24,874 nt of DNA from Candidatus Schekmanbacteria bacterium (lineage in GTDB: Bacteria; CSSED10-310; JACPHN01), in contig JACPHN010000138.1 in NCBI GenBank assembly GCA_016188575.1, positions 1 through 24,874 of the forward strand, in the 5' to 3' direction. The notes beneath the pieces were generated by a model that was not told where the DNA came from, ran no database searches, and saw nothing but the letters and a program-made list of their open reading frames with translations. Below, piece after piece: positions 742 through 23,746 of this stretch (positions are counted from its first letter, which is position 1; each line of letters opens with the position of its first letter). The position numbers and the translations under genes were made by a program.

Positions 742-2622
742 ATGTTCTTCCGGAAGGGCGAGGAGCCAGTCCCGCTCGCTCCGGCCGAGCTCGCGCGCTG
801 GGCGGAGGAATTGTATGCGGCCAGCGCCACCGAGCCGCCCTTGCGTGGAGCCATCTTCACGATCGAGCAGCTCGAGCTGCACGCCAAGGCCCTCGCCACC
901 GCCCATGTGCTGGGTCGCCGTCGTGGTGGCGGTCAGCTCTTGAAGCGACTGGCCGACTCCCAGCGGGTGATCGCTCAATGCCACGATCTGGTGTCCGGCG
1001 CACACGCTGCCGGGCGGCACCTGACACCCGCCGCCGAGTGGCTGCTGGACAACCACTACCTGATCGAGGAACAAGTCGACCTGGCCAAGAGACATTTTCC
1101 GCGTGGTTTCCAGCGCCAGCTACCGAGCCTGAAGAGCGGCGAGTCCTCCGGATTGCCCCGGATCTACGACCTCATCCTGGAGCTGATCTCACATGTGGAT
1201 GGCCGAGTGGATGGGGAAGCCTTGGGTCGTTACATCGCCGCGTACCAATCCGTCACGCATCTGTCGCTAGGAGAGCTGTGGTCGATCGCCATCATGCTCC
1301 GGCTCGCCCTGATCGAAAATTTGCGCCGCGTCTCCTTGAGTATGAGCTGGCAGCGGGCTCATCGGGAAAGCGCCCTGGCGTGGGCGCAGCGGATCGATGC
1401 CCCCGGCGACACGCATGATACCCCGCTCCTGGTACTCGCGGACATGGTCCGCGAGAACCCGCCACTCTCGACGGCGTTTGTCGCTCAGTTTACGCAGGCC
1501 CTCCAGGGGCGCAGTGCCACCACGGCCTTCGTGCTGGCGTGGCTGGAACAGCGGCTCGCCGAACGAGGTCAGACGATCGAGGAAGTGATTCGCGCGGAGA
1601 GCCAGAGCCAGGCGGCCGACCAGGCATCGATGGCCAACAACATCGCCAGCCTGCGCTTCGTCAACGCCACCGAATGGGCCAAGTTAGTCGAGGCGCACAG
1701 CGCCACCGAGGAGATCCTGCGGGCCGAGCCGGCCGGCGTGTACGGCCAAATGGATTTCGCGACACGCGACCAATACCGGCATGTCGTGGAAACGCTGTCC
1801 CGGCGGTTCCACTTGGGAGAAGAGGAAGTGGCTCGGGCCGCCGTGGCGCTCGCCGCCGCGCGACATGCCGCGCAGAGCGAAGATGTCGGCGCCCACGTGG
1901 GTTACCTGCTCGTCGATGACGGGAAGCCGCATCTCGAGCGAGCTCTCCGCGGGCGCCATGCCGCCAGCCTCCCTCCGCGGCTGGCGCTGCGCGAGCTACA
2001 GCTTCTGGGGTATCTCGGACCCGTCGCCCTCCTGACAGCCGCCATCGCCGCGTGGCCGCTCATTCAGTCCTGGCGGGCATCCTATCTCGCGTGGCCTGCC
2101 CTGGCACTCTGCGCGGCCCTGGCGGCGTCGCAGTGCGCAATCGCAACGGCGAACTGGTTCGCCTCGATTCTGCGCCGACCTCGGACATTACCCCGGATGG
2201 ACTTCGAACGCGGCATCCCCGATGCGTGCCGCACGATCGTCGTCGTGCCCACGCTACTGACAGGGTCCAAACGCATTTCCGAGATAATCGAAGGCTTGGA
2301 ACGTCGCTACCTGGCCAACCGCGATCCGAACTTGTGGTTCGGGTTACTGACCGATTTCGGTGATGCCGCGCAGAAACGCGTTGCAGGGGACGACGCGTTG
2401 CTGGAACTGGCGGCCGGCGGCATCGCGGAGCTCAACGGCAAGTACGGCGACGGTGCCCACGGGCGGTTCTTCCTGTTCCATCGGCCCCGCCTGTGGATCC
2501 GCAGGAAGGCTGCTGGATGGGCCGCGAACGCAAGCGGGGCAAGCTCGAGGACTTCAACACCTTGCTGTGCGGCGACGATCGGGATCGCTTCAGCCGCATC
2601 GTGGGTGACGTTTCACAGTTGA
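742..2622 (+). CDS. Cyclic glucan synthase-like protein, N-terminal fragment
   Basis: This 626-residue frame is homologous to the family up to about residue 585 (W at 2494-2496). The last ~40 residues are out-of-frame sequence after the first break. The N-terminal part carries family-typical stretches such as TPAAEWLLDNHYLIEEQ (residues ~95-111) and LGELWSIAIMLRLALIENL (~175-195). A hydrophobic stretch at about residues 415-470 should form one or two membrane segments. The beginning of the GT84 fold follows (IVVVPTLLTG, ~500-510). ATG 742 is the first possible start after an in-frame stop. Its ribosome-binding site is weak (only GCAGG directly abutting), so the true start is uncertain. Alone, this fragment lacks the catalytic aspartates. 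Confidence 0.7.
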   Translation: MFFRKGEEPVPLAPAELARWAEELYAASATEPPLRGAIFTIEQLELHAKALATAHVLGRRRGGGQLLKRLADSQRVIAQCHDLVSGAHAAGRHLTPAAEWLLDNHYLIEEQVDLAKRHFPRGFQRQLPSLKSGESSGLPRIYDLILELISHVDGRVDGEALGRYIAAYQSVTHLSLGELWSIAIMLRLALIENLRRVSLSMSWQRAHRESALAWAQRIDAPGDTHDTPLLVLADMVRENPPLSTAFVAQFTQALQGRSATTAFVLAWLEQRLAERGQTIEEVIRAESQSQAADQASMANNIASLRFVNATEWAKLVEAHSATEEILRAEPAGVYGQMDFATRDQYRHVVETLSRRFHLGEEEVARAAVALAAARHAAQSEDVGAHVGYLLVDDGKPHLERALRGRHAASLPPRLALRELQLLGYLGPVALLTAAIAAWPLIQSWRASYLAWPALALCAALAASQCAIATANWFASILRRPRTLPRMDFERGIPDACRTIVVVPTLLTGSKRISEIIEGLERRYLANRDPNLWFGLLTDFGDAAQKRVAGDDALLELAAGGIAELNGKYGDGAHGRFFLFHRPRLWIRRKAAGWAANASGASSRTSTPCCAATIGIASAASWVTFHS

Positions 2623-5600
2623 CCTCGGTCCGCTACGTGATCACCCTGGACACCGACACGGACCTGCCCTGGGGGGCCGGCTGGCGCCTGGTGGGCGCCG
2701 CCGCCCACCCGTTAAACCGCCCGACGATGGATGTTGGCGACCAGCGCCTCGTCCGTGGCTACGCGATCCTCCAGCCCCGCGTCAGCATCTCACTCGCCAG
2801 CGCCCGGCAGAGCCACTATTCGCGGCTGATGGCCGGCGAGGTGGGCATCGACCCCTACTCCCGAGTGGTTTCGGATCTCTACCAGGACCTCTTCGGGGAG
2901 GCGTCCTTCATCGGCAAGGGCATCTATGACGTGGGTGCCTTCCGCCGGTTGCTGGACGGGCGATTCCCCGACAACACGGTGCTGAGCCACGATCTGCTGG
3001 AGTCGTGCTACGCGCGGACCGGCCAGTGCAGCGACGTGGAGCTGCTCGAGGACTCCCCTTCGCGGTACCTCGATGACGTCAGCCGGCGCCACCGCTGGAT
3101 GCGCGGCGATTGGCAGATCGCACCGTGGCTTGGCCTGCGGGTGAGCGATGCCCAAGGCCGGCGGATTGAGCCCTGGATCGCGGCACTGGGCTGGTGGAAG
3201 ATATTCGATAACCTGCGCCGGGCCTTCGTCGCGCCCGCCTATGCGACACTGCTCACGCTGGGGTGGATTTTGCTGCCGGATCCCCTTCCGTGGACGCTGG
3301 GAATTCTCTCGTTGCTTTTCGTCCCCGAGTTGCTGCCCGGCATGGCCGAGTTGGTGCAGCGCCCGGCGAAACTGCCGCCGTGGCTGCATCTGACCACTGT
3401 CGGCCGGTCGACAGCGCGGCGACTGACCAAGATCGCGCTGTGGCTGGCGTTCATCCCATTCGAGGCGGCGGTCGCCCTCGATGCCGCCCTCCGCTCGCTG
3501 TGGCGCATGCTCTACAGCCGCCAGCGCCTGCTCGAGTGGCAGACGGCCGCGGCGGCGGCCGAGAGCGGGGCGGCGTCGGGCATCGGGCGCGTCGTCCAGC
3601 GGATGTGGGTGGGTCCGAGCCTGGCGACGGCGGTCGCAGCGTTGTTGATCACGATGGGCACGCCCCGCGCCGCTGCGTCAGCGAGCGCCATCGTGCTGTT
3701 GTGGTTCCTGTCACCGTTGATAGCATGGTGGGTCAGCCGGCCGCTGCGGCCGGGTTCGACTCGGCTCGGCGATGGCGACGAGCGCTTCCTGCGCCACGTC
3801 GCCAGGCTCACCTGGCGTTACTTCGAAGTATTCGCCGGACCCCAAGAACACTGGCTTCCCCCAGACAACTTCCAGGAGCTGCCCGCTCACCGCGTGGCCC
3901 ATCGCACCAGCCCGACGGACATGGGCCTGGCGCTGCTGTCCAACCTGGCGGCGTACGATCTGGGTTATCTGAGCGGGGGGCAGTTGCTGGACCGAACGGC
4001 CCGCGCGATCGAATCCATGGAACAGATGGAGCGCTATCGGGGGCACTTCCTCAACTGGTATGACACCAACACGCGCAGAAGCCTCCGGCCCCTCTACGTC
4101 TCCACTGTCGACAGCGGCAACTTGGTCGGGCATCTGCGGGTCCTACGCAGCGGGCTGCTCGAGCTTGCCGCCGGGACGCTGTTGCCGGCAGGGGCACTGG
4201 GGGGCCTGCACGACACACTGCGCGTGCTGGCCGAGCAGAACAGCCAGGTCAAGGATCCGCCGGTCGCTTGCGACCAGCCGGCCTTCGATGCGATCGCACG
4301 ATTGCTGTTGGGTCAACCCGAAGGCCTTACGGCCACAGCAGCTTGGCTGACAGAGCTCGCCGCCGCAGCCACACGGTTGGCCGAATCGATCGATCGGCAG
4401 CGTCATCCTGAAGTCGCCTGGTGGGCGAACGCCTTTGACCGGCAGGTGCGCTCCTTCCTGGATGATTTGACCGCGATGGCGCCGTGGCTTGTCCCCAGCG
4501 CCGAGCCACTTCACGGCGGGTCCCAGCACCTGATGTCCGAGATCGACCGCGCGCGCAGCCTGCAGCAGCTCGGCGACCTCACGCAATACGCCGCCGAGGT
4601 GCTGGGCTCGATCTCCGCTACCGAAAGCCCCGGCCAACTGGCCCGGGCGTTGCGGCTCGGCTCTGAACGCATCTCGGCGCGCATCCGCGAGATCGACGCC
4701 CTCTACGAGCGATGCCTCGGCCTGACGGATGCGGAGTTTTCGTTCCTCTACGATCAGAGGCGCAAGCTCCTGTCTATCGGATACTGGGTGGCCGATCGCA
4801 GACTGGACAACAGTTTCTATGACCTGCTGGCGTCGGAGGCGCGGCTGGCGAGCTACGCCGCCATCGCTTCCGGCCAGATCCCGTTCGACCATTGGTTCGC
4901 TCTCGGGCGGCTCCTGACGACGGCGCGTGGCAAACAGGTGCTGCTGAGCTGGAGCGGCTCGATGTTCGAGTACCTGATGCCGTTGCTGGTGATGCCCGGC
5001 TTCGAGGGTGCGCTCCTGGACCAGACATGCCACGCGGCCGTCGCCCGTCAAGTGCAGTACGGCCGGCAACGCGGTGTCCCGTGGGGCATTTCCGAGTCCT
5101 GCTACAACGTGACGGATTCCGAGGGCACCTACCAATATCGCGCCTTCGGGGTGCCCGGACTGGGCCTACAGCGCGGGCTCAGCGACGATGTGGTGGTCTC
5201 ACCGTACGCCTCGGCGCTGGCCCTGCTGGTCGATCCGCAACGCGCCTGCGAGAACCTGCGACGAATGGCCCGGGATGCGTACCTCGGCCCCTACGGATTC
5301 TACGAAGCCATCGACTTCACACCCGGCCGCATACCGAAGGGAGAGCAGCGGGCGGTCGTCCGGGCGTTCATGGCCCACCATCATGGGATGAGCCTGGTGG
5401 CGATCGGGCAGGCAGTGCTGGGCCCACAGATGCAGCGGAGGTTCCTGAGCAATCCGGACCTCCGCGCCGCGACCCTGCTGCTCCAGGAGCGGATTCCCAA
5501 GTCGATTGCGCTCATGCGTCCGCATGCGCGGGAGGCCCAGGTTTCGCACCGGGTTCTGGGCCCGGAGGCGGATCACGCGATTCGCATGTTCACCAACCCG

Positions 5601-6068
5601 AACGCGCCGATCCCCGAAGTGCATCTGCTCTCCAACGGCCGTTACCACGTGATGATCTCCGCCGCGGGAAGCGGTTACAGCCGCTGGAACGACCTGGCGA
5701 TCACCCGCTGGCGAGAGGATCCCACTTCCGAGTCGTGCGGGATCTTCTGTTACATCGGCGACCAAATGACCCACCGCTGGTGGTCAAACTCGTTTCAGCC
5801 GACCCTGCACGCCGGCCGACAGTACGAAGCGGTATTCACGTTGGGCCGGGCCGTGTTCCGATGCTGGCGGCCAACGGCAAGGTGGGCGCGTGCAGCTACG
5901 CGACGGATCGCGGACGCTGCGTCGGCAGGGGCCGCAGCACTCGTCAACCCGCAGTGCTCGACGACTGGGGCCCTCTTCCGGGAACGGCGGGGCAGGTGCT
6001 GGACCCATGTGTCGCGCTCCGGCGTGCGGTGGAGCTACCGGTTGACGGCAGTGCGCAACTCGACCTGA
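2493..6068 (+). CDS. Cyclic glucan synthase-like protein, middle fragment (GT84 and glycoamylase-like)
   Basis: This frame continues the protein from DPQEGCWMGRERKRGK (residues 2-17). The GT84 catalytic core shows TLDTDTDLP (aspartates at ~53, 55 and 57), LSHDLLE, and the RRHRWMRGDWQ acceptor motif near residue 200. Membrane segments follow at roughly 240-280, 310-340 and 370-415. A glycoamylase-like domain then contains GHFLNWYDT, VSTVDSGNLVGHLRVL and, later, SWSGSMFEYLMPLLV, PWGISESCYN and MAHHHGMSL. Homology ends at GRAVFR (about residue 1,123, base 5861). The final ~70 residues are out of frame. There is no credible ribosome-binding site for GTG 2493, because in the intact gene this was internal sequence. 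Confidence 0.75.
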   Translation: MDPQEGCWMGRERKRGKLEDFNTLLCGDDRDRFSRIVGDVSQLTSVRYVITLDTDTDLPWGAGWRLVGAAAHPLNRPTMDVGDQRLVRGYAILQPRVSISLASARQSHYSRLMAGEVGIDPYSRVVSDLYQDLFGEASFIGKGIYDVGAFRRLLDGRFPDNTVLSHDLLESCYARTGQCSDVELLEDSPSRYLDDVSRRHRWMRGDWQIAPWLGLRVSDAQGRRIEPWIAALGWWKIFDNLRRAFVAPAYATLLTLGWILLPDPLPWTLGILSLLFVPELLPGMAELVQRPAKLPPWLHLTTVGRSTARRLTKIALWLAFIPFEAAVALDAALRSLWRMLYSRQRLLEWQTAAAAAESGAASGIGRVVQRMWVGPSLATAVAALLITMGTPRAAASASAIVLLWFLSPLIAWWVSRPLRPGSTRLGDGDERFLRHVARLTWRYFEVFAGPQEHWLPPDNFQELPAHRVAHRTSPTDMGLALLSNLAAYDLGYLSGGQLLDRTARAIESMEQMERYRGHFLNWYDTNTRRSLRPLYVSTVDSGNLVGHLRVLRSGLLELAAGTLLPAGALGGLHDTLRVLAEQNSQVKDPPVACDQPAFDAIARLLLGQPEGLTATAAWLTELAAAATRLAESIDRQRHPEVAWWANAFDRQVRSFLDDLTAMAPWLVPSAEPLHGGSQHLMSEIDRARSLQQLGDLTQYAAEVLGSISATESPGQLARALRLGSERISARIREIDALYERCLGLTDAEFSFLYDQRRKLLSIGYWVADRRLDNSFYDLLASEARLASYAAIASGQIPFDHWFALGRLLTTARGKQVLLSWSGSMFEYLMPLLVMPGFEGALLDQTCHAAVARQVQYGRQRGVPWGISESCYNVTDSEGTYQYRAFGVPGLGLQRGLSDDVVVSPYASALALLVDPQRACENLRRMARDAYLGPYGFYEAIDFTPGRIPKGEQRAVVRAFMAHHHGMSLVAIGQAVLGPQMQRRFLSNPDLRAATLLLQERIPKSIALMRPHAREAQVSHRVLGPEADHAIRMFTNPNAPIPEVHLLSNGRYHVMISAAGSGYSRWNDLAITRWREDPTSESCGIFCYIGDQMTHRWWSNSFQPTLHAGRQYEAVFTLGRAVFRCWRPTARWARAATRRIADAASAGAAALVNPQCSTTGALFRERRGRCWTHVSRSGVRWSYRLTAVRNST

Positions 6069-12400: not shown

Positions 12401-13033
12401 GAGCGCTGCATACGTCACGTCCGACACGTCGCTCATCAGGGTGAGCGCGATCAAGTAGAGCACGAAAAAGACCGCCATCCCGGCATACGTGTGCAGCAGG
12501 CTTCGCGTCAGCGACGCAATTGCGAAAAAGATCGCCCCCATGACCAGGAGATTTGGAAAGACGAAGACAAGCAGCGCGAATAGATACGCGCCGGGCAGGA
12601 ACGGTCCCACCCGCCCGGGCTCCAGCCACGGCATCTTTCCGCCGATAGCGATGGCCGCAGCGACGCCGACAAAGATCAGGAAAGTGACGGAGAGCGAGCC
12701 GGCGAAGCGGCCCAGCAGATACTCGCTCTTTTTCATGGACGTCGTGAAGAACACGGGATACATCCGGGATTCGAAGTCCCGGTACACGGCGTTGGAAACG
12801 AACGCGGTCACCGCAAAGACGCCGAGAATGCTGAGGATCACGAGCGTCTGCATGACGACAAACGAAGCGTTGCGGTTCACGTTGCCGATGGCGCCGCCGA
12901 TGGTCACCGCGTCGGTGGTCACGGCGCCGAACGCCATGGCGGAAAAGAACAGCAGGCACACCCAGAAGAGTGGTTGCCGCAGGTGATGGCGGAGCTCGAA
13001 GGCCGCGATTTCGCGCAACACGGTGGCGCTCAT
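9443..13033 (-). CDS. ABC-2 type permease fused to M1 family metallopeptidase
   Basis: This 1,196-residue protein joins two modules. Residues ~1-600 carry about 13 hydrophobic segments in two blocks (roughly 20-290 and 330-600) separated by a charged linker, as in ABC-2 permeases. Residues ~610-1196 are a peptidase domain with the gluzincin motif HEVAHQWWGH (H938, E939, H942) and a third zinc ligand candidate in LSETLAEY (E about 962). PYSESVGF sits where M1 enzymes carry GAMEN, and HYHKGSLVMY supplies the likely catalytic Tyr. The last membrane segment (~570-590) should place the peptidase on the outer face of the inner membrane. ATG overlaps the stop of the upstream ATPase gene by four bases, so the two are translated together. 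Permease/aminopeptidase fusions of this type are known, but their substrate is not. Membrane topology is inferred. Confidence 0.88.
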   Translation of the reverse strand: MSATVLREIAAFELRHHLRQPLFWVCLLFFSAMAFGAVTTDAVTIGGAIGNVNRNASFVVMQTLVILSILGVFAVTAFVSNAVYRDFESRMYPVFFTTSMKKSEYLLGRFAGSLSVTFLIFVGVAAAIAIGGKMPWLEPGRVGPFLPGAYLFALLVFVFPNLLVMGAIFFAIASLTRSLLHTYAGMAVFFVLYLIALTLMSDVSDVTYAALIDPFGAAAFFHATAYWTVAEKNVALPPLWGTLLANRLAMLIVAVGVLCLTALRFRMGEVARGRARGVERDEAAAGERPLAVSTEPRVVRQSFRRSDAVRAFFQLTRLEISCIVRGLPFLVILFLGVVNTIASTSAREEVLGTPVYPVTYLMIEGIQGAYLIFALLVLTLYSGETAWRERSLRLDGVLDALPVPIGVTWAAKLASLLCALLLLLTAAGATTVVMQLAEGYQRIEPLLYFKALYLEIGSSLALVVVLAFFVQALTGSKYFGFLLMILYYVSLAVLPALHIEHHLLSYATAPPSIYSDMNGYGHFAAPLFWFTLYWALFAGLLVVATHLLWPRGAEIQLGMRLRSAGRRLTKPVATVAAALLLGLLATGGNIYYNTCRLNPYRTQQDDEQRASELEKKYKYLESVAQPRIVDIKATVDIYPRQREAHIAGTYTLVNKTEAPISDLHVLVPAGIETDRIDVPGADLAATDAPLGYRRYHLKTPLPPGGSLPMEFATRIINRGFVNGHSDTKVVANGTFFDNMDTFPHLGYARWDELKDSATRKKYGLPPVVRMPKIDDVRARGNTYFSQEADWLTFAATVSTDADQIAIAPGYLQREWSEGGRRHFRYEMDAPILDFFAFQSAAYMVKRDRWNDVAIEIYYHADHEYNVDRMIDGVKKSLDYFTASFSPYQHRQLRIVEFPRYQRFAQSFPNTIPYSESVGFITDLRDPEAVDLVVAGTAHEVAHQWWGHQVIGGDVQGSTMLSETLAEYSALMVMEKAYGAEKMRKLLRYELDRYLKGRGGELVEELPLALVENQPYIHYHKGSLVMYALKDYIGEQALNGALSAFVKKAAFQGPPYASSRDLIELIRAAVPPDRQGIIADLFERITLYDLRATEATAVARSDGAFTVKLAVEARKLQADGQGGETPGAVDDWIDVGVLADGEAGTDRVLALEKRHLTQPREEFELTVRERPARAGIDPLNKLIDRNPDDNTVAVAGQ

Positions 13034-13920
13034 TGCGGTCGCTCGGGTGCCGCATGCAGCGTGCGAAAGTAGACGTCCTCGAGCGACGCTTCGATGGGCG
13101 AAAATGACGCGTCCGGCCGCTCCGCGGCGTGCACGTGGATCACCGTTCGCCCGGCGACCAGCCGCGTCATGATCACCGGCAGCTCCATCTCGTACCGCGG
13201 CAGCTCCGCTTTCGGAATGGCTTTCGTCCAGGTCTTGCCGCGCAGCTCGTCGATGAGCCGCTGAGGGTCACCGGTGGCGAGCGTGCGGCCGTTGGCGATG
13301 ATGGCCATCTGCCCACAGAGATCGCTCACGTCGTCCACGATATGTGTCGACAGGATTACGACGACGTTCTCGCCGATCTCGCTCAACAGATTGTGGAAGC
13401 GAACGCGTTCCGCGGGATCGAGACCGGCGGTAGGCTCGTCGACGATGATGAGCCGAGGGTTACCGAGAAGCGCCTGCGCGATCCCGAAGCGCTGCCGCAT
13501 GCCACCGGAGAACGTGCCCAGCTTCCGCCGGCGCACGTCGTAGAGGTTGGTGCGGTGCAAGAGCGCCGCCACGCATTCCTTCCGCTCGCGCGCGTCGTGA
13601 ATCCCCTTCAGGACGGCAAGGTGCGTCAGCAATGCCTCCGCCGTGACCTTTGGATAGACGCCGAATTCCTGCGGCAGGTAGCCGAGGACGCGCCGCAGGC
13701 GGTCTTTCTGTGAGCGCACGTCGAAACCGTCGAAGCGGATGCCACCGCTGTCCGGCTCCTGAAGCGTCGCAATCGTGCGCATCAGCGTTGACTTTCCCGC
13801 GCCGTTAGGGCCAAGCAGACCGAACATCCCGGTGCCGATGGTCAGCGTCACGCCGTCCAGCGCGCGCACGCCGCCCGGATACGTTTTGGAAAGGTTTGCG
13901 ATTTCGAGCTCCAGTCCCAT
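13030..13920 (-). CDS. ABC transporter ATP-binding protein
   Basis: This 296-residue cytoplasmic ATPase powers the adjacent permease. It has Walker A GPNGAGKST (37-45), a Q-loop in GYLPQEFGVYPK (~80-91), the signature FSGGMRQR (137-144), Walker B LIIVDEP with D161/E162, and the switch histidine in STHIV (~193). The architecture matches the CcmA/NatA-type ATPases that pair with ABC-2 permeases. A C-terminal extension of about 80 residues follows the nucleotide-binding domain. The start ATG is preceded by a G-rich Shine-Dalgarno (GGGGGG, five bases before ATG). Its stop overlaps the permease-peptidase start (ATGA). It lies 105 bases after ilvD on the same strand, so it may be read through from the BCAA operon, though a link in function is not evident. 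Confidence 0.93.
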   Translation of the reverse strand: MGLELEIANLSKTYPGGVRALDGVTLTIGTGMFGLLGPNGAGKSTLMRTIATLQEPDSGGIRFDGFDVRSQKDRLRRVLGYLPQEFGVYPKVTAEALLTHLAVLKGIHDARERKECVAALLHRTNLYDVRRRKLGTFSGGMRQRFGIAQALLGNPRLIIVDEPTAGLDPAERVRFHNLLSEIGENVVVILSTHIVDDVSDLCGQMAIIANGRTLATGDPQRLIDELRGKTWTKAIPKAELPRYEMELPVIMTRLVAGRTVIHVHAAERPDASFSPIEASLEDVYFRTLHAAPERPQ

Positions 13921-14025: not shown

Positions 14026-15699
14026 TCAGAATTCGTCTTGCAAGACAGCCCCGCGACTGCCGCTCGTCACCAGCCGCGCGTAGCGCCGCAGCCACCGGCT
14101 GCCAATGCGGCGATCGGGCGGAACCCACGAGGCCCGCCGCCGCGCGAGCTCCGCCGCGTCGACCGCAATATTCAGACGGCGACCAGGAATATCGACCTCG
14201 ATGATATCGCCATCCTGGACGAGCGCGATGGGGCCCCCCGCCGACGCCTCCGGCGAAACGTGACCGATGCACGCGCCTCGCGTCCCGCCGCTGAAGCGAC
14301 CGTCGGTGACCAGCGCCACGCTCGTCCCCAGGCCCATCCCCATGATGTTGCTGGTGGGCGCCAACATCTCCTGCATCCCCGGTCCACCTGCCGGTCCCTC
14401 GTAGCGGATAATGACCACGTCGCCCCGTCTTACGCGTCCTGCGAGGATTCCGGCATTGGCGCTGTCGTGGCTGTCGAAGCAAACGGCCGGACCGCGGTGG
14501 GTCAGCATCTCCGCGGACACGCCGGCAGTTTTCACCACGCCGCCTTCCGGAGCCAAGTTTCCAAACAGAACGGCGAGCCCACCGGTTTGACTGTACGGCT
14601 CCTCCAGCGAGCGTATGACGGCGCGATCCTTGCTCAGGCAGCCGATGACGTTTTCCCCGAGCGTTTTTCCGGTGACGGTTGCGGCCTCGAGCCCCAGCAA
14701 GCCGGAGCGGCGCGCGAGCTCCGCCAGAATCGCCGACACCCCGCCGGCGCGGTCCACGTCCTCGACGTGGTACGGACTGGACGGCGACACCTTGCAGATG
14801 CACGGAATCTTCGCGGCGAGATCGTTGAGCCGGGACAACGGGTATGCCACTCCCGCTTCATGCGCCAGCGCGATCGTGTGCAGGACTGTGTTCGTGCTCC
14901 CGCCCATGGCGATGTCGAGCGCGAAAGCGTTGTCGATCGCGGTCGCCGTCACGATCTGGCGCGGTGTCAGGTCGCGCGCGATCAGCTCGAGGATCTGCCG
15001 CGCCGCGGCGCGCGCGAGCTCGGCACGCCTCTCATCGACCGCGAGAATGGTGCCATTGCCGGGCAGCGCCATGCCGAGCGCCTCGCAGAGGCAGTTCATG
15101 GAATTCGCCGTAAACAACCCCGAACAGGAGCCACAGGTTGGACATCCGAAGTCTTCGAGCTCCTTCAGCTCTCGATCGGAGATGCTCCCTGCCTGGCGGG
15201 CGCCGACACCTTCAAAGACGGAGATAAGGTCGACCGTCTTGCCGGACGGCGTCTTCCCCGCCGCCATGGCGCCGCCGCTGATGAAGATGGTCGGAATATC
15301 CAGACGCATCGCCGCCATGAGCATGCCGGGCACGATCTTGTCGCAGTTCGGGATGCAGATGAGGCCATCGAAGTGGTGGGCGGCAACGACGGTCTCCACG
15401 CAGTCGGCGATGAGCTCGCGACTGGGAAGCGAGTATTTCATGCCCGCGTGTCCCATAGCGATACCGTCGTCCACGCCAATGGTATTGAACATGAACGGCA
15501 TGCCGCCCGCTTCGCGCACTGCCGTGCGCACGATCTCGCCAAACGCGTTCAGGTGCACATGGCCGGGAATAATGTCGATGTAGGAGTTGGCGATGGCGAC
15601 GAAGGGCTTGCCCATGTCCTCGTCGCGAACTCCGGTCGCCTTGAGCAGCGCCCGGTGTGGCGCCCGCTCGAAGCCCTTCTTGATCGTATCGGATCTCAT
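14026..15699 (-). CDS. ilvD: Dihydroxy-acid dehydratase
   Basis: IlvD dehydrates 2,3-dihydroxy-isovalerate and 2,3-dihydroxy-3-methylvalerate to the keto acids that precede valine and isoleucine. The 557-residue length is normal. Iron-sulfur cluster ligand motifs are visible: IPNCDK (C119) and PTCGSCSG (C189, C192). The N-terminal segment reads IIPGHVHL, like the E. coli-type enzyme, rather than the PCN variant with an extra cysteine. GGSTNTVLH and VTDGRFSGG, both strongly conserved in the IlvD/Edd family, are present. ATG 15699 has GGGAG about eight bases upstream. It is the last BCAA gene of the run, separated from cimA by 128 bases with no obvious signal, so it may need read-through transcription. 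Confidence 0.96.
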
Positions 15700-15827: not shown

Positions 15828-17435
15828 TCACGCTCCGGGATCTCCCGGCGGCACCACCGGGGTCTCGACGCCGGCCCGCCACAGGCCGGTCTCGATGCTG
15901 TCCACCAGCGCCTGCCAGGATGCCTCGATGATGTTATCCGAGCAGCCTACCGTCGTCCAGGTATCGTTGCCACTGGTGGAGGTGATGAGCACGCGGGTCG
16001 TCGCACCCGTCGCCTTGTCACCATCCAGGATCCGCACTTTGTAGTCGATCAGGTGGATGCCGGCGAGCACGGGGTAATATGGCAGGAGCGCCTTGCGCAG
16101 CGCCCGATCGAGGGCCTCGACGGGGCCGTTTCCCTCGGCCGCGGTGTGGACGGTGCAGCCTCCGACCTTGACCTTGACGATGGCTTCGGCAAGCAACCCG
16201 CGCTGATCCCGATGCTCGACCAGCGAGAGGAAATCAATGAGCTCAAAGGGGGGGCGATACTGGACCCGATTGCGGCGAAACAACAGCGCAACCGATGCTT
16301 CCGCCGCCTCGAACGAGAACCCGCGCGCCTCGAGGAGCTTGATTTGCTCGACCACACGCCGCGCCTCGTCGACTCCGAGATTATCCGAAAAACCGAGCTC
16401 CTGCGCCTTGAACAGGAGATTCCCCTTGCCGGAAAGCTCGCTCAGCAGCACGCGCGTGCGATTGCCGACGAGCTCGGGGCGAATGTGCTGGTAACTCTCG
16501 GGGCACTTTACGGTCGCGTCCGCGTGAATGCCGCCCTTGTGCGCAAAAGCGCTCACGCCGACAAACGGCTGATGCGTGTCGGGAGAGAGGTTGCAGAGCT
16601 CGGCGACAATGCGCGCGACCTCCGTCAGGCGGCCGAGTTGCTCGTCGGTGACGCAGATGATGCCCATCTTGAGCTTGAGGTCAGCGATGGCGGAGACGAG
16701 GTTGCAGTTTCCCACGCGCTCACCGTATCCGTTGATCGTGCCCTGGACCTGGGTCGCGCCGGCTCGCACCGCGGATAGCGCGTTTGCGACGGCCAGCTCG
16801 CCATCGTTGTGCGTGTGGATGCCGACGGCCGCGGGGGTCGCCGCAACGACCGCGGCCGTTACCTCGCCAACGACCCAGGGCAGCGACCCGCCGTTGGTAT
16901 CGCACAGGACGACGGTTTCGGCACCGGCTTCGCAGGCCGCACACAACGTCTCTTGCGCGTATTCGCGGTCGGCCCGCCAGCCGTCGAAGAAGTGCTCCGC
17001 GTCGTAGATGACGCGCCGCCCGTGCGATCGTAGGAAGCGCACCGTGTTTCCGATCATGACGAGGTTTTGCTCACGGCTGACGCGCAGCACCTCGTTGACG
17101 TGCAGGATCCAGGACTTGCCGACGATGGTGACGATCTCGGTCCCGGCGGCGAGCAGTTGGAGCAGGTTGGGGTCATCCTCCACGTGGGTATGCGCCCGCC
17201 CGGTATAGCTAAACGCGCAGATTTTCGCGGTCTTGAGCGGCAGCTCCTTGACCCGCTCGAAGTAAGCGACGTCCTTGGGGTTGGAGCCGGGCCAGCCACC
17301 CTCGACGAGCTGCACGCCGAGCTCGTCGAGCAAGCTCGTAACCTGGAGCTTGTCGGCCACAGAAAGGGAGATGCCCTCGCGTTGGCTGCCGTCGCGCAGC
17401 GTGGTGTCGTACAGAAAAACGGGCCGGTGAGTCAT
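15828..17435 (-). CDS. cimA: (R)-citramalate synthase
   Basis: This 535-residue DRE-TIM metallolyase condenses pyruvate with acetyl-CoA to citramalate, opening a threonine-independent route to 2-ketobutyrate and isoleucine. It shows YDTTLRDGSQREG (9-21), GGWPGSNPKD (47-56), the metal-binding HTHND (H207, H209) and NGYGERVGNCNL, followed by a C-terminal LeuA-type dimer/regulatory domain. SQREG instead of EQSPG, and GGWPGSNP, mark the Geobacter-type citramalate synthase group rather than LeuA. I chose ATG 17435 because GGAGG lies seven bases upstream (ACCGAGGAGGCGGGA). The frame could start at 17498 inside leuB, but that extension is charged and not family-like. The spacing to leuB is 49 bases. 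A homocitrate synthase reading is less likely because the neighbours are all BCAA genes. Confidence 0.92.
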   Translation of the reverse strand: MTHRPVFLYDTTLRDGSQREGISLSVADKLQVTSLLDELGVQLVEGGWPGSNPKDVAYFERVKELPLKTAKICAFSYTGRAHTHVEDDPNLLQLLAAGTEIVTIVGKSWILHVNEVLRVSREQNLVMIGNTVRFLRSHGRRVIYDAEHFFDGWRADREYAQETLCAACEAGAETVVLCDTNGGSLPWVVGEVTAAVVAATPAAVGIHTHNDGELAVANALSAVRAGATQVQGTINGYGERVGNCNLVSAIADLKLKMGIICVTDEQLGRLTEVARIVAELCNLSPDTHQPFVGVSAFAHKGGIHADATVKCPESYQHIRPELVGNRTRVLLSELSGKGNLLFKAQELGFSDNLGVDEARRVVEQIKLLEARGFSFEAAEASVALLFRRNRVQYRPPFELIDFLSLVEHRDQRGLLAEAIVKVKVGGCTVHTAAEGNGPVEALDRALRKALLPYYPVLAGIHLIDYKVRILDGDKATGATTRVLITSTSGNDTWTTVGCSDNIIEASWQALVDSIETGLWRAGVETPVVPPGDPGA

Positions 17436-17484: not shown

Positions 17485-18588
17485 TCATGAGGCGACACCC
17501 GCGGCGCGGGCGGCTGTTGGCGCTGGGGCGAGAAGGTCGAGCACCTGGGCGGTCATGGCGCGGGTCCCTACGGGTTCGCACCCAGGACTCGCGATGTCGC
17601 CGGTGCGGAGACCCCGGTCGAGCGCCGCCGCGACCGCGCTTTCGACCGCCTCCGCCTCGACGTTCAATGCCAGCGAATACCGCAGCAGCAGAGCGGCGCT
17701 CAGGATCGTCGCAAGCGGATTGGCAACACCCCTGCCGGCGATGTCCGGCGCCGACCCGTGAATCGGCTCAAACAATCCGGGTCCGCGATCTCCGAGCGAA
17801 GCGCTCGGCAGCATGCCGAGCGAGCCGGCGATCATGGATGCTTCATCGGTGAGAATGTCACCGAACATGTTCTCGGTGACGATGACGTCAAACTGCGCCG
17901 GCCGGCGGATCAGGAACATGGCGGCGGCGTCGACAAGAATGTGTTCGAGGGTGACGTCGGGGAAATCGCGCGCTACCACCTCCATCGCGACTCGGCGCCA
18001 CAGACGGGACGATGCCAGGACATTGGCCTTGTCCACCGACGTCAACCGGCCACGGCGCAGGCGCGCAAAGCGGGCCGCGAGCCGCACGACGCGCTCGACT
18101 TCGGCGGCGGTATAGACCATGGTGTCGAACGCCCGTCCGCCGGTTTCCTCCTGGCGGTCACCAAAATAGAGGCCGCCCGTCAGCTCCCGCACAACCAGCA
18201 GATCGACGCCCGCAACGATCTCGGGTCGCAGCGGCGACGCGGCGGCGAGCTGGGGAAAGATGCGCACGGGCCGCAGGTTGGCATACAGCCCCAGCGCCTT
18301 GCGAATGCCGAGCAGGCCTTGCTCAGGACGAACCGGCGCCCGCGGGTCGTCCCACTTCGGGCCACCAACCGCACCCAGAAGCACGGCGTCGGACTCGCGG
18401 CACGCCGCCAACGTGTCCTCAGGGAGTGGTTTTCCGGTCGCGTCGATGGCGCACCCGCCGATGAGGCAGGACGAAAAGGTGAAGGTATGACCCCAGAGCG
18501 CGGCGACCCTGGCGAGCACGTCGCGCGCCGCGCCCACGACCTCGGGGCCGATGCCATCACCGGGAAGCAGGACGATGTTGGCCTTCAT
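17485..18588 (-). CDS. leuB: 3-isopropylmalate dehydrogenase
   Basis: LeuB is an NAD-dependent oxidative decarboxylase that turns 3-isopropylmalate into 2-ketoisocaproate precursors in leucine synthesis. The 367-residue length fits. Motifs include [10 protein letters not shown] at the N terminus (~8-17), the substrate-binding [20 protein letters not shown] (~89-108), the TSVDKANVL segment (~190-200), [10 protein letters not shown] and [15 protein letters not shown] with the NAD-site region. ATG overlaps the leuA stop (ATGA), so translation is coupled. Because cimA follows it directly, the same enzyme probably also oxidises 3-methylmalate in the citramalate branch, as known for LeuB in citramalate-pathway organisms. 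That is inferred from context. Confidence 0.96.
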
Positions 18589-20174
18589 ACGGCTTCCTTG
18601 CGCTCGCGAGCGGTCAGGATCAAACGGTTCAGCGCCTGGACATAGGCCTTGGCACTGGCGACGATGATGTCGGTATCGACCCCGCGACCGCTGTAGATGG
18701 TGCGATGCGGGCCGGTCTGGGGATTGACGCGCAACAGCTCGCCTTCACCCTGAACGCGAACGGTAACGTCTCCCACGGCGTCGATGCCGGCCGTGACTCC
18801 CTGAACTGTGTATTCGATCAGTTGGTTGGGCGCCTGGACGATCTTCTGGATCGCCTGGTAAACGGCGTCGACAGGCCCGGTCCCCATGGCGGTAGAGGCC
18901 AGCTCCTCACCGTCCTCGCGGCGCAGGAGCACTGTAGCCGTGGGAATGTTCTTGTTGCCACAAATGACTTGCACCTGTTCGAGGTGCCAGACCTCGATGG
19001 GCTGATAGAGCTGCTCGCCGAGAATCGCCTCGATATCCGCATCGGTAACGCGCTTTTTCTTGTCCGAGAGCTCCTTGAAGCGACGGAACGCTTCATTGAC
19101 CTGCGCCTCATCGAGCTCATAGCCGAGATCGACGAGGCGGTTGCGAAAGGCGTGCCGGCCACTGTGCTTGCCGAGCACGAGCTTGCTCTCGGGAGCGCCG
19201 ACGAGCTCCGCGTCCATGATCTCGTACGTGCGCTTGTGCTTGAGCATTCCGTCCTGGTGAATGCCGGCCTCGTGAGCAAACGCGTTGGCACCGACGATCG
19301 CCTTGTTGGGCTGAACCACGAGCCCGGTGTAGCGACTGACCATGTCACTGGTGCGATGGATCTCGGGGCTGTCGATGCCGGTGACCAGGCCGTAGAACGG
19401 CTTGCGCACATAGAGCGCCATCACGACTTCCTCGAGCGAGCAGTTTCCCGCGCGCTCGCCGATGCCGTTAATCGTGCATTCGACCTGCCGGGCGCCGGCG
19501 CGCACCCCGGCGAGGGCATTGGCGACGGCCAGCCCGAGATCGTCATGGGTGTGGACGGAGACCACCACGTCGCGCTCACGCACTCCCGATGTATGGGCGA
19601 TGATGTCGCGAATCAACCCGCCAAACTCCTCGGGCGTGGTGTAGCCGACCGTGTCCGGAATGTTGATCGTCCGGGCTCCCGAAGCGACGGCCGCGGCGAG
19701 CACCTGGTAGAGAAACTCTGGATCGCTGCGCCCGGCATCTTCCGGGGAAAACTCGATGTCGTCGCAGTATTGCTTCGCGAGCGCCACCATGTCGCCTACG
19801 GTCGCGATGACCTCGGCGCGCGTCATGCGCAGCTTGTGCTGCACGTGAATGTCGCTGGTCGCGAGGAAAGTGTGAATGCGCGGGCGCGCTGCGTGTTGCA
19901 CGGCCTCCCAGCACTTGGCGATGTCCTGCGGGTTGGCGCGGGCCAGGCCGCAGATGATGGGACCTTCCGGCTTGCCGACGGTGCGCGCGATCTCGGCTAC
20001 CGCGTCGAGGTCCCCCGGCGAAGCGGCCGGGAAGCCGGCCTCGATCACGTCGACCTTGAGCCGCGCCAGTTGCTTGGCGATGTCCAGTTTTTCGTGTGTA
20101 TGCAGCGTCGCGCCCGGCGACTGCTCGCCATCGCGCAACGTCGTGTCGAAAATGAAAACCCGATCTGAGCTCAC
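18585..20174 (-). CDS. leuA: 2-isopropylmalate synthase
   Basis: LeuA condenses acetyl-CoA with 2-ketoisovalerate, the committed step of leucine synthesis. The 529-residue protein has [13 protein letters not shown] (9-21), the metal-binding HTHDD (H208, H210), [14 protein letters not shown], and [17 protein letters not shown]-terminal dimer domain of the leucine feedback type ends the protein. The start is GTG 20174, which overlaps the ilvC stop (GTGA), with a GAGG ribosome-binding site about nine bases upstream. The frame continues upstream into ilvC, but that extra sequence is an arginine-rich shadow. Having both LeuA and CimA in one operon shows that the two acetyl-CoA-dependent routes are co-expressed. 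Confidence 0.96.
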
Positions 20175-21181
20175 GATTCTTCGACCTCTTTGGGATCGAT
20201 CCAGGTCATCATGCCTCGAAGCTTCTTGCCGACCTGCTCGATCTGGTGCTCCCGTTCGGCCCGGCGGCGCGCATTGAACCACGGCCGGCCCTTGCGGTTT
20301 TCTTCGATCCACCCCCGGGCGTAGGTGCCGTCGCGGACCTCGTCGAGGATCTTCTGCATCTCGGCCTTCACGCGGCCATCGATGAGGCGGTCTCCGGCAG
20401 TGTAGTCGCCGTGCTCGGCGGTATCGCTGATCGAATAGCGCATGTAACTGAGGCCACCCCTGTAAATGAGATCGACGATCAGCTTGAGCTCGTGGAGGCA
20501 CTCGAAGTAGGCGACCTCAGGCTGGTACCCCGCGCGCACGAGCGTCTCGAATCCGGCCTTGATGAGCGCGGAGGCGCCGCCGCACAGCACCGCCTGCTCG
20601 CCAAACAAGTCGGTCTCGGTCTCCTCCGCGAATGTCGTGGCGATGACTCCGGCTCGCGTGCATCCGAGGCCGGCCGCGTAGGAGAGCGCAAGTGGCAGAG
20701 CTGAGCCCGACACATCCTGGTGAACCGCCACGAGCGCGGGCGTGCCGCCGCCTTCGGTGAAAACCTCCCGCACGCGGTGGCCCGGCGCTTTTGGTGCGAC
20801 CATGCTGACGTCGATGCTCGCCGGCGGGGAAATTTGTCCGAAGCGGATGTTAAAGCCGTGAGCGAACATCAGGGTCGCCCCCGGACGCAAGTTGGGAGCG
20901 ATCTCTTCGTGGTAGACCGCAGCCTGGCTGGTGTCGGGCAGCAGCACCATGATGACGTCGGCATCCGCGACCGCGGCGCCTACGGAGTGGACGGGCAGAC
21001 CGTCGGCGGCGGCCTTGGCGCGACTCTTGCTAGCCGCGTGCAGGCCGACCCGGACGGACACGCCGCTATCGCGTAGGTTGAGCGCGTGTGCGTGGCCCTG
21101 GCTGCCGTATCCGAGCACGGCGACGCTTTTCTGCCTGATGAGCGTGAGGTCGGCGTCGCGATCATAGAAAATGTTGGCCAT
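20171..21181 (-). CDS. ilvC: Ketol-acid reductoisomerase (NADP-type, class I)
   Basis: IlvC isomerises and reduces acetolactate and acetohydroxybutyrate in the shared valine/isoleucine pathway. The 336 residues match short, class I enzymes. The Rossmann motif [17 protein letters not shown] is at 24-40. The following loop [12 protein letters not shown] carries serines and basic residues, which favours NADPH. The metal-binding motifs [14 protein letters not shown] and [11 protein letters not shown] are intact. ATG 21181 has GAGGT seven bases upstream. The frame extends to 21319, but the extra N-terminal part overlaps the end of ilvN and is not family-like. There is a 40-base gap after ilvN and a four-base overlap with leuA. 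Confidence 0.96.
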
Positions 21182-21221: not shown

Positions 21222-21746
21222 TCAGATGTTGACCTGCTGCGCGGCAGCAACCGCGGGGACTTCCTTGTCGCTGCGGCCTCGTTCCATCGCGACGAGACCG
21301 GTCCTGACCAGCTCGGCAATGCCGAACTCCTTGAGCACCTCGATGAACGAATCGATCTTCTTGACCTCTCCGGTGAGCTCGATGATGACGCTGCTGGGAG
21401 CGACGTCGACGACCTTGCCGCGGAAAATGTCCACGAGATTGAGGACTTCGGAGCGCGTATCGGGGTTCGTGTGCACCTTGATCAGGGCCAGGTCGCGCTT
21501 GACCGCGGGGAGGTCGGTGACGTCCTTCACCTCAATCGTGTTCACGAGCTTGTACAGGTTGCGTTCGACGATCCGCGCATCCGTTCGGGTAGCGTCGACA
21601 ACGATCGTCATTCGCGAGACTGCGGGGTTCTCGGTCGGGCTGACGGTCAGGCTGTCGATGTTGTAGAGGCGGCGGCGAAACAGACTGGAAATGCGATTGA
21701 GCACGCCGGGCTTGTTCTCGACCTTGCAAACGAGGACGTGTTTCAT
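21222..21746 (-). CDS. ilvN: Acetolactate synthase, small regulatory subunit
   Basis: This 174-residue regulatory subunit binds IlvB, raises its activity and usually confers valine feedback inhibition. An ACT domain is at residues ~2-75 ([18 protein letters not shown], then [12 protein letters not shown]), followed by the ALS small-subunit C-terminal domain (~85-160: [10 protein letters not shown], then FRGKVVDV and ELTG). The start ATG 21746 overlaps the ilvB stop (ATGA) and has AGGAGGTG about six bases upstream. The open frame continues to 22025 but lies inside ilvB and is a shadow there. The last ~15 residues form an Ala/Gln/Val tail outside the usual domain. Some relatives call this gene ilvH. 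Confidence 0.95.
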
Positions 21747-23452
21747 TCGTGCACCTCCTGCGCCTTTGGCTGACTTGGCCTCCGAATCATGTCGGCCAGG
21801 TCCGCCCCGCTGGGGACCATGGGGTAGACGCTGTCCGCGGACTCGACGACGAAATTCAACAGGGCGGGACCGTTGACCTCGCGCGCGCGGAGCGCGGCGG
21901 GAATGACGTCCTCTCTCCGGTCGACGCGAAATGCCGCAATCCCATAAGCCTCGGCCAGCTTGCAGAAGTCCGGGTTGACCAGCGGTGTTGCGGAGTAGCG
22001 GCGCTCGTAGAAAAACTCCTGCCACTGTCGAACCATGCCGAGAAACCCGTTGTTGATGATGGCGATGCGGAGCGGCAGTTTCTCCTGGACCACGGTGCCG
22101 AGCTCTCCCAGGGTCATCTGAAAACCGCCGTCACCGGCAATCACCCAGACTTCGGCATCGGGGCGACCGATCTTGGCGCCGATCGCCGCGGGGAGAGCGA
22201 ACCCCATGGTTCCCAGACCACCGCTGGTGATGAGCGAGCGCGGCTCTTCATGGCGGTAGTACTGCGCCTCCCACATCTGGTGCTGCCCGACGTCGCTGAC
22301 GATGATGGCGTTGCCGGCTGTCGCCTTCCACAGATCGACGATGACGTGCGCGGTCCACAGCTTACCTTGGGGATCGTGGTGCAGGATGTCGCGCTCGCGG
22401 GTGGCCGCTAACCAGGTGTCGATGCGCGCCAGCCACAGCGACCGATCGGCCTTCTCGACGTGCGGCAGGAGCTCGCGGAGAACCTCGCGCACGTCGCCGA
22501 TGATCCCGACGTCGACCTTGACGTTCTTGTTCAGCTCGGAAGGATCGATGTCGATGTGGATCTTGTGAGCTCCTGGGGCGTAGGTCTTGAGGTTGCCGGT
22601 GACGCGGTCGTCGAAGCGCATCCCGAGCGCGATGAGCAGGTCCGCCTCCTGGATGGCATGGTTTACCGCGGCCTCGCCGTGCATGCCCATCATTCCCGCG
22701 CACAGTCGATGGGAGGCGGGAAGGCCGCCGATCCCGAGGAGCGTCAACGCCACTGGAATGTCAGCCTTTTCCACGAGCCCGCGGAGCTCCGCCACAGCGC
22801 CGCTCATGATGATCCCGTGGCCGGCAAGCACGACGGGGCGCTGGGCGCCATTGATCAGCTCGATCGCGCGCTCGAAGTCGGCCTTGGGGACGATGGTGCG
22901 CGGCCGGTAGCCGGGGAGCTCGATGGGATCATCTGGATAGTGAAACCCGGTGCGGTCGAGCTGCACGTCCTTGGGGATGTCGACCAGTACGGGTCCCGGC
23001 CGCCCGGTGCGCGCGATGTGGAAGGCCTCGCGAATGGTCGATGCGAGCTCGCGGACGTCGGTGACGATGTAGTTATGCTTGGTGACCGGCAGCGTCACGC
23101 CGGTGACGTCCGTCTCCTGAAAAGCGTCGCTGCCGATCACGCCTTTGGCGACCTGACCCGTGATCGCAATCAGGGGAATTGAATCCATCATGGCGTTGGC
23201 GAGACCCGTGACCAGGTTAGTGGCCCCCGGACCACTGGTCGCGACCACGACGCCCGCCTTGCCGGTGGCGCGGGCGTAGCCGTCGGCGGCGTGCGTGGCG
23301 CCTTGCTCGTGCCGGACCAGAACGTGCCGAATATCGTACTGGGTCATGGTGTCATAGGCGGGTAGGATGGCGCCGCCGGGGTAGCCGAAGACGACGTCGA
23401 CACCTTCACGGAGCAAGCACTCCCAGAGGATCTCGGCACCGGTTTGTTGCAA
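21743..23452 (-). CDS. ilvB: Acetolactate synthase, large catalytic subunit
   Basis: IlvB is the thiamine-diphosphate- and FAD-dependent enzyme that makes acetolactate from two pyruvates, or acetohydroxybutyrate from pyruvate plus 2-ketobutyrate. With the TTG start it is 569 residues, the usual size. The catalytic Glu is E49 in VRHEQGATHAADGYARATG. SGPGATNLVTG follows. The ThDP/Mg motif starts at GDGGFQM (440-446) and ends with INN. The conserved MVRQWQEFFYERRYS is close after it. I chose TTG 23452 because GGAGGG (23460-23465) lies seven bases upstream and homology begins there. A GTG at 23521 would put the N terminus inside the attenuator hairpin. This is the first structural gene behind the attenuator. 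Confidence 0.95.
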   Translation of the reverse strand: MQQTGAEILWECLLREGVDVVFGYPGGAILPAYDTMTQYDIRHVLVRHEQGATHAADGYARATGKAGVVVATSGPGATNLVTGLANAMMDSIPLIAITGQVAKGVIGSDAFQETDVTGVTLPVTKHNYIVTDVRELASTIREAFHIARTGRPGPVLVDIPKDVQLDRTGFHYPDDPIELPGYRPRTIVPKADFERAIELINGAQRPVVLAGHGIIMSGAVAELRGLVEKADIPVALTLLGIGGLPASHRLCAGMMGMHGEAAVNHAIQEADLLIALGMRFDDRVTGNLKTYAPGAHKIHIDIDPSELNKNVKVDVGIIGDVREVLRELLPHVEKADRSLWLARIDTWLAATRERDILHHDPQGKLWTAHVIVDLWKATAGNAIIVSDVGQHQMWEAQYYRHEEPRSLITSGGLGTMGFALPAAIGAKIGRPDAEVWVIAGDGGFQMTLGELGTVVQEKLPLRIAIINNGFLGMVRQWQEFFYERRYSATPLVNPDFCKLAEAYGIAAFRVDRREDVIPAALRAREVNGPALLNFVVESADSVYPMVPSGADLADMIRRPSQPKAQEVHE

Positions 23453-23503: not shown

Positions 23504-23540
23504 AAAAAAACTCGGGGCCACCGCGTTGGAGGCCCCGAGT
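23504..23540 (-). terminator. Attenuator terminator of the ilv-leu operon
   Basis: In the transcript, ACTCGGGGCC (23540-23531) pairs perfectly with GGCCCCGAGT (23519-23510) across an 11-base loop. Seven U follow (23510-23504). It is a textbook intrinsic terminator placed between the leader ORF and ilvB, about 50 bases before the ilvB start. The only way into ilvB from the promoter at 23718-23746 is through it. Confidence 0.93.
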
Positions 23541-23578
23541 CATTCCAGCGTCATTATTCGGTTAAACCTGGGGCCACC
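23528..23578 (-). promoter_or_regulatory. Predicted antiterminator pairing
   Basis: In the transcript GGTGGCCCC (23578-23570), at the end of the leader ORF, can pair with GGGGCCTCC (23536-23528), giving eight pairs with one T-T mismatch. This uses the 5' arm of the terminator stem, so the two structures exclude each other. CGCGGTGGCCCC occurs twice in the leader, once here and once in the terminator, which is what creates the alternative pairing. A preceding hairpin, CTCCTCG (23615-23609) with CGAGGAG (23598-23592), covers the control codons and could act as the protector stem. Confidence 0.75.
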
Positions 23579-23663
23579 GCGAAGTACGCCGCTCCTCGCC
23601 AAGAATGACGAGGAGCCGGTCTACGATGAGGAGGATTTGGCTGGCGGAGCGATCCAGGTGCAT
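23562..23663 (-). CDS. ilv-leu operon leader peptide
   Basis: This 33-residue ORF runs from ATG 23663 to TAA (23564-23562). Residues 10-21 read ILLIVDRLLVIL, that is three Ile, five Leu and two Val in 12 codons, far above chance and exactly the amino acids made by the operon. In attenuation, low charged tRNA stalls the ribosome on these codons, freeing bases 23570-23578 to form the antiterminator. When supply is ample the ribosome reaches the stop, covers that segment, and the terminator forms. GTG 23669 two codons upstream is an alternative start. No strong Shine-Dalgarno is seen (GGGAAGAG lies 13 bases before the GTG). The ORF is too short for standard gene callers. Confidence 0.9.
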   Translation of the reverse strand: MHLDRSASQILLIVDRLLVILGEERRTSRWPQV

Positions 23664-23717
23664 CTTCACTAGTACCGAAATGCTCTTCCCAAGCGCATCT
23701 GGGAGGCACGGGCAGAA

Positions 23718-23746
23718 ACTATATGACGCGTTTCGCAGTGTGTCAA
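23718..23746 (-). promoter_or_regulatory. Sigma70-type promoter of the ilv-leu operon
   Basis: On the minus strand a perfect -35 TTGACA (23746-23741) is separated by exactly 17 bases from the -10 TATAGT (23723-23718), one mismatch from consensus. Transcription should start near 23711. That leaves about 48 bases before the leader ATG and about 200 bases of leader to the end of the terminator. Such a strong promoter suits an operon controlled by termination rather than by initiation. Confidence 0.88.

Follow-up and report, generated by a model that had tools for sequence, protein, structure and literature searches.

Attenuation by translation of a leader peptide is a textbook mechanism in Proteobacteria and is also known in Actinobacteria. 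Among enteric bacteria, branched-chain amino acid (BCAA) attenuation is exemplified by the ilvB and ilvGMEDA attenuators of Escherichia coli. Enterics and Corynebacterium have established attenuators of this kind at ilvB, and others have been proposed for several further groups (PMC10272879; PMC1262725; PMC11857589). As stated in PMC2965389 (2010), leader-peptide systems had been demonstrated only in Proteobacteria and Actinobacteria until its own case in Firmicutes. In the literature searched, we found no on-point attenuator from Chloroflexota or Acidobacteria; a 2010 survey (Lopatovskaya et al., as cited in PMC4833913) may list some.

Here, we describe the region upstream of ilvB in a 24,874-nucleotide contig (the window) from a Candidatus Schekmanbacteria bacterium. 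Judged by its parts, their conservation and covariation, and RNA folding, the region is very probably (probability roughly 0.87) a ribosome-mediated BCAA transcription attenuator of the classical amino-acid-operon kind. The mechanism is already known; for its occurrence in these lineages we found no published description.

The window shares with E. coli ilvB and ilvGMEDA, as cited in PMC10272879 (its reference 15), an Ile/Leu/Val (I/L/V)-rich leader peptide, alternative antiterminator and terminator helices and a U tract, all ahead of acetolactate synthase genes. Conversely, the sequences are different, a compact hairpin lies within the control codons, and one leader precedes ilvBNC-leuAB-cimA-ilvD. 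The ilvB-II motif, found in the Corynebacterium ilvBNC leader (PMC10272879; three-hairpin model in PMC11857589), also has an I/L/V-rich uORF, a leader hairpin and a terminator, and its antiterminator likewise uses part of the terminator stem. However, the Corynebacterium uORF has 15–17 codons, compared with 33 in the window, and an Rfam-based search found no sequence similarity. The ilvB-OMG and Leptospira ilvB motifs (PMC10272879) are similarly structured RNAs before ilvB, with BCAA-rich uORFs, and are proposed attenuators. In those motifs Thr codons are abundant too, and no Rfam family, ilvB-OMG included, gave a covariance-model match above its curated score in the window.

Architecture of the ilvB leader region and operon

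All elements proposed by the sequence-only reading were located where it had placed them, on the minus strand from 23746 to 23504 (Table 1). These include the near-consensus promoter, the 33-residue leader and, on translation, a run of 12 consecutive codons of which 10 specify Ile, Leu or Val. Two hallmarks of an attenuator are evident: a short leader ORF in which codons for the operon's end products cluster, and an intrinsic terminator between that leader and the first gene. Comparable −35/−10 pairs lie upstream of the leaders of relatives. No other promoter-like site was found between positions 13000 and 23800, the 10.8 kb holding the operon.

Table 1. Features of the leader region and the operon in the window.
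Feature	Position	Strand	Details
σ70-like promoter	23718–23746	−	TTGACA-17 nt-TATAGT; 11 of 12 consensus matches
Expected transcription start	near 23711	−	From promoter position
Leader ORF MHLDRSASQILLIVDRLLVILGEERRTSRWPQV	23562–23663	−	ATG at 23663; 33 codons and TAA ending at 23562; from translation
Control codons ILLIVDRLLVIL	23601–23636	−	Inside leader ORF
Leader hairpin P1, GCTCCTCGTCA/TGGCGAGGAGC	23591–23616	−	Fold; compensatory changes among relatives
Antiterminator 5′ arm core GCGGTGGCCCCAGG	23567–23580	−	Pairs with terminator 5′ arm; adjoins leader stop
Intrinsic terminator ACTCGGGGCC...GGCCCCGAGT and U7	23504–23541	−	Hairpin 23541–23510
ilvB, acetolactate synthase large subunit	21743–23452	−	TIGR00118, 749.8 bits (cut-off 538.35)
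ilvN, acetolactate synthase small subunit	21222–21746	−	TIGR00119; ATGA overlap with ilvB
ilvC, ketol-acid reductoisomerase	20171–21181	−	TIGR00465
leuA, 2-isopropylmalate synthase	18585–20174	−	TIGR00973, 704.9 bits (cut-off 598.7); overlaps ilvC
leuB, 3-isopropylmalate dehydrogenase	17485–18588	−	TIGR00169; overlaps leuA
cimA, citramalate synthase	15828–17435	−	TIGR00977, 673.2 bits (cut-off 450)
ilvD, dihydroxy-acid dehydratase	14026–15699	−	TIGR00110

The density of control codons is far above that of shuffled sequence. When the 293-nt region was shuffled 3000 times with dinucleotides preserved, no shuffle gave ten I/L/V codons in 12 (the best had 9), and neither did any of 1448 windows of equal size taken from the genome's other contigs. 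Leaders with at least 9 were present in 4 of 1448 random windows of the host genome (~0.3%). Elsewhere in the window's genome, the leader was not found again. No good Shine-Dalgarno sequence precedes the leader ATG in the window; relatives have GAGGA or AGGAG before their leaders. A precedent without a ribosome-binding site is C. glutamicum ilvBNC, as cited in PMC10272879 (its reference 16).

The gene content was also as proposed, including the citramalate route, since cimA scores above its curated cut-off. Translation of ilvB starts at a TTG codon (23452) downstream of GGAGGG. Where the genes do not overlap, the gaps are ~40 nt (ilvN/ilvC), ~50 nt (leuB/cimA) and ~130 nt (cimA/ilvD). Because genes overlap, and no other promoter was found, it is plausible that a single leader governs the whole set from ilvB to ilvD. 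The leuC gene is away from the operon, on contig C162 of genome G000 (L192), and no fitting BCAA leader was found in the 1500 bases upstream of it. Beyond ilvD, positions 13920–9443 of the minus strand encode an ABC transporter ATPase, which is co-directional with ilvD and follows it by 105 nt, then a protein of 1196 aa containing ABC-2 membrane and peptidase M1 domains. On the plus strand, positions 2493–6068 encode a 1191-aa cyclic-glucan-synthase-like protein with glycoamylase and GH94 supersandwich domains.

Predicted folding of the leader RNA

The 208-nt leader RNA folds at −86.5 kcal/mol (z −3.31 compared with shuffles). Hairpin P1 is built from the last control codons and the codons that follow them. 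Pairing of the antiterminator arm with the 5′ arm and loop of the terminator is worth −20.5 kcal/mol, and those same terminator segments also serve the terminator itself (−25.7 kcal/mol; −24.4 kcal/mol for the bare hairpin). When the terminator 3′ arm was left out of the transcript, P1 and the antiterminator both formed in the predicted fold. The antiterminator and terminator therefore appear to be mutually exclusive, as the sequence-only reading had it: they have an arm in common, and cognate pairing, covariation and folding all agree. The terminator is indeed strong and is followed by seven U, but its stem is not strictly perfect, as had been claimed, because of one U-U mismatch near the loop.

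The same reading had described P1 as a protector hairpin. This was not borne out. P1 is compatible with the antiterminator in predicted folds and so is not a protector in the sense of the trp 1:2 helix; alone, it leaves the antiterminator arm unmasked. In most relatives a longer helix is predicted, in which upstream control codons pair with a stretch including the antiterminator arm and P1 forms the tip (z down to −3.7 compared with shuffles). The best long helix in the window has a free energy of −22.8 kcal/mol, a z of only −0.6 compared with shuffles, and is missing from the MFE structure. On thermodynamic folding alone, the window leader is predicted to allow more read-through without translation than the leaders of its relatives.

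Related leaders in Chloroflexota

Related loci were fetched using IlvB, yielding 25 ilvB loci with enough upstream sequence in genomes near G060. The closest IlvB proteins are 73–74% identical and belong to genomes close to an Ardenticatenaceae-labelled MAG (Chloroflexota). A leader with at least 9 I/L/V codons in 12, together with a matching antiterminator and terminator, was found at 13 of the 25 loci. All five of the closest leader loci (L112, L115, L116, L117 and L118) have a leader of the window's type, such as MVLSVLLLVLVLIIQLLVIILGKERMRVGRAGSST (L115) and MLVSLALLNLVLVVLLSLLVIIIGKEPARVGKAASTKV (L118), and their peptides end LLVI-x-GKE-xx-RVG. Eight further loci (L119, L123, L125, L127, L134, L137, L141 and L143) have 9 to 11 I/L/V codons in 12, then an antiterminator arm and terminator. 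The sequence-only reading would have been undermined by close relatives that had no leader ORF or competing helix. Instead, an I/L/V leader, its hairpin, an antiterminator and a terminator are all present at the five closest and the eight further loci, despite divergence of the leader sequences and of the IlvB proteins, which are down to 66–81% identity.

Hence, the Chloroflexota leaders match the window in leader tail, P1, antiterminator and terminator architecture and, for the closest, in the operon that follows. They differ in having, in most cases, the longer protector helix, as well as a leader Shine-Dalgarno sequence and, in the five closest, a U tract weaker than that of the window. Four of these (L117, L118, L112 and L115) have a second strong hairpin, with four or five T after it, downstream of the attenuator terminator and ahead of ilvB. 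This hairpin is worth about −30 kcal/mol in L117 and L118; the window has a weaker hairpin at that place.

The covariation that was anticipated among relatives is present, with compensatory changes in P1 and in the antiterminator and terminator arms. We paired the antiterminator arms and terminator 5′ arms of 14 loci in all combinations. The cognate arms sum to −294.9 kcal/mol, whereas swapped arms average −244.7 kcal/mol (sd 10.4); not one permutation out of 20000 reached the cognate sum. Matched changes can be seen in GTTTGGAAGG/CCTTCCAAAC (L141) and GTTTAGGA/TCCTAAAC (L143) compared with GTTGGGAGG/CCTCCCAAC (L115). Alignment of 13 whole leaders with MAFFT misaligned P1; pairs were therefore counted on hand-cut arms, with kinship ignored. 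Counted in this way, 98.6% of cells are paired in P1, and both partners have changed at 4 of its 8 pairs; in the antiterminator core, 89.3% of cells are paired and both partners have changed at 5 of its 7 pairs. The covariation score of P1 was reached by none of 500 shuffles. Because the hand-cut register favours the structure, we give more weight to the alignment-free comparison of cognate and swapped arms.

These data bear on an alternative explanation, in which the terminator is a constitutive or factor-independent cause of premature termination, the leader ORF is a by-product of GC-rich sequence, and amino acids are not sensed. There is a cautionary case in Streptomyces coelicolor, where mutating the codons of an ilvB leader of similar appearance brought no response, so that these codons are dispensable (PMC1262725). 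However, such an origin would not account for an I/L/V density beyond that of 3000 shuffles, for retention of the leader while IlvB diverged, or for helices that covary, and we consider it improbable.

Candidate leaders were also noted elsewhere. Four Acidobacteriota ilvB loci (L061, L070, L010 and L076) have weaker candidate BCAA leaders, then terminator-like hairpins, and may be a separate attenuator group. In a genome of another phylum (G011), locus L091 combines the leader MLNGKSLKGVFNANISLGLSLLGLLIVILGGLIITP with a strong eight-T terminator, in the stretch from ~260 to 93 bases ahead of ilvB.

Origin of the operon

The closest Chloroflexota loci have the gene order of the window, with extra genes between leuA and leuB. 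Compared with G060 and G068, identities are 74% for ilvB, 67–68% for ilvN, 78% for leuA, 68–69% for leuB, 74% for cimA and 79–80% for ilvD. Conversely, ilvC is only 44–48% identical. Hence, the operon looks mosaic, and the history of ilvC seems to differ from that of the other genes. In an IlvB tree, the window falls inside a supported set of 32 sequences made up of Chloroflexota and one Thermoanaerobaculia group; G007, the one IlvB orthologue found in the phylum of the window's genome, is far away. In an RpoB tree, full support places the window's genome outside Chloroflexota, among members of its own phylum. The best-matching stretch of its RpoB shares 52% identity with the G060 protein.

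The proximity of the operon proteins to Chloroflexota is what would be expected if the contig were a Chloroflexota contaminant of the assembly, and the attenuator foreign to this lineage. The tetranucleotide profile argues against this. The window correlates at 0.90–0.95 with eleven of twelve other contigs of its genome (0.75 for the remaining one, of 4 kb) and at 0.67–0.76 with the tested Chloroflexota contigs; both halves of the window behave alike. Contamination is thus unlikely. Taking the operon identities, IlvB tree, RpoB placement and tetranucleotide profile together, the simplest reading is transfer: the operon, leader included, seems to have moved between phyla horizontally from a Chloroflexota-like donor. 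Separately, Acidobacteriota IlvB proteins of Thermoanaerobaculia/Holophagales (L032, L033, L034, L043, L045, L055, L057 and L058) lie inside the Chloroflexota clade, possibly another transfer.

A fuller scenario can be offered only tentatively. A complete BCAA operon with its attenuator may have crossed a phylum boundary. Re-matching of the terminator and antiterminator arms may then have kept the switch working, even as the leader Shine-Dalgarno sequence and the long protector helix were lost. The untranslated leader would hence read through by default, unlike those of its Chloroflexota kin.

A model for attenuation

We propose that the region works as follows. RNA polymerase would start at the expected site and make a leader of ~210 nt, with a ribosome behind it translating the 33-codon peptide. 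With an ample supply of charged Ile, Leu and Val tRNAs, the ribosome would reach the stop codon (23564–23562) and cover the antiterminator arm. The terminator would then form and transcription would stop before ilvB. Should any one of the three amino acids be short, the ribosome would stall on the control codons. The antiterminator arm would be left free to pair with the terminator 5′ arm, and transcription would continue into ilvB-ilvN-ilvC-leuA-leuB-cimA-ilvD. We infer that the leader is translated, that the switch responds to starvation and that the genes past ilvB come under its control.

Folding of the pre-terminator transcript is consistent with this scheme. With a ribosome mask placed so that the A site was on any control codon, the antiterminator still formed. 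Conversely, it was abolished when the mask was moved to the stop codon or to the final sense codon. The coordinates confirm that the leader stop lies at the antiterminator arm, with the terminator downstream. Across 14 of 14 loci, the stop is between 20 nt before and 15 nt after the end of that arm, within reach of the ribosome; both this placement and folding of the window would permit the ribosome to block the antiterminator. When the full terminator was included, the equilibrium fold favoured the terminator in every case. Hence, read-through must be kinetic, decided during RNA synthesis. Known attenuators likewise make this decision while the RNA is made.

Arrest by the nascent peptide, to which the conserved tail of the five closest leaders might point, or a ligand-binding riboswitch or T-box, is highly improbable: conservation falls on the codons from which P1 and the antiterminator arm are built, and RNA pairing thus accounts for it, in more distant relatives the peptide changes while pairing stays, and Rfam matches in the window, taken at E values up to 10, were at chance level and below gathering score.

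The covarying BCAA attenuators of Chloroflexota, and their apparent transfer across phyla, suggest that such switches travel as self-contained modules. These would need only ribosome, tRNA and RNA polymerase. The diverged natural variants are available for testing which helices are essential.
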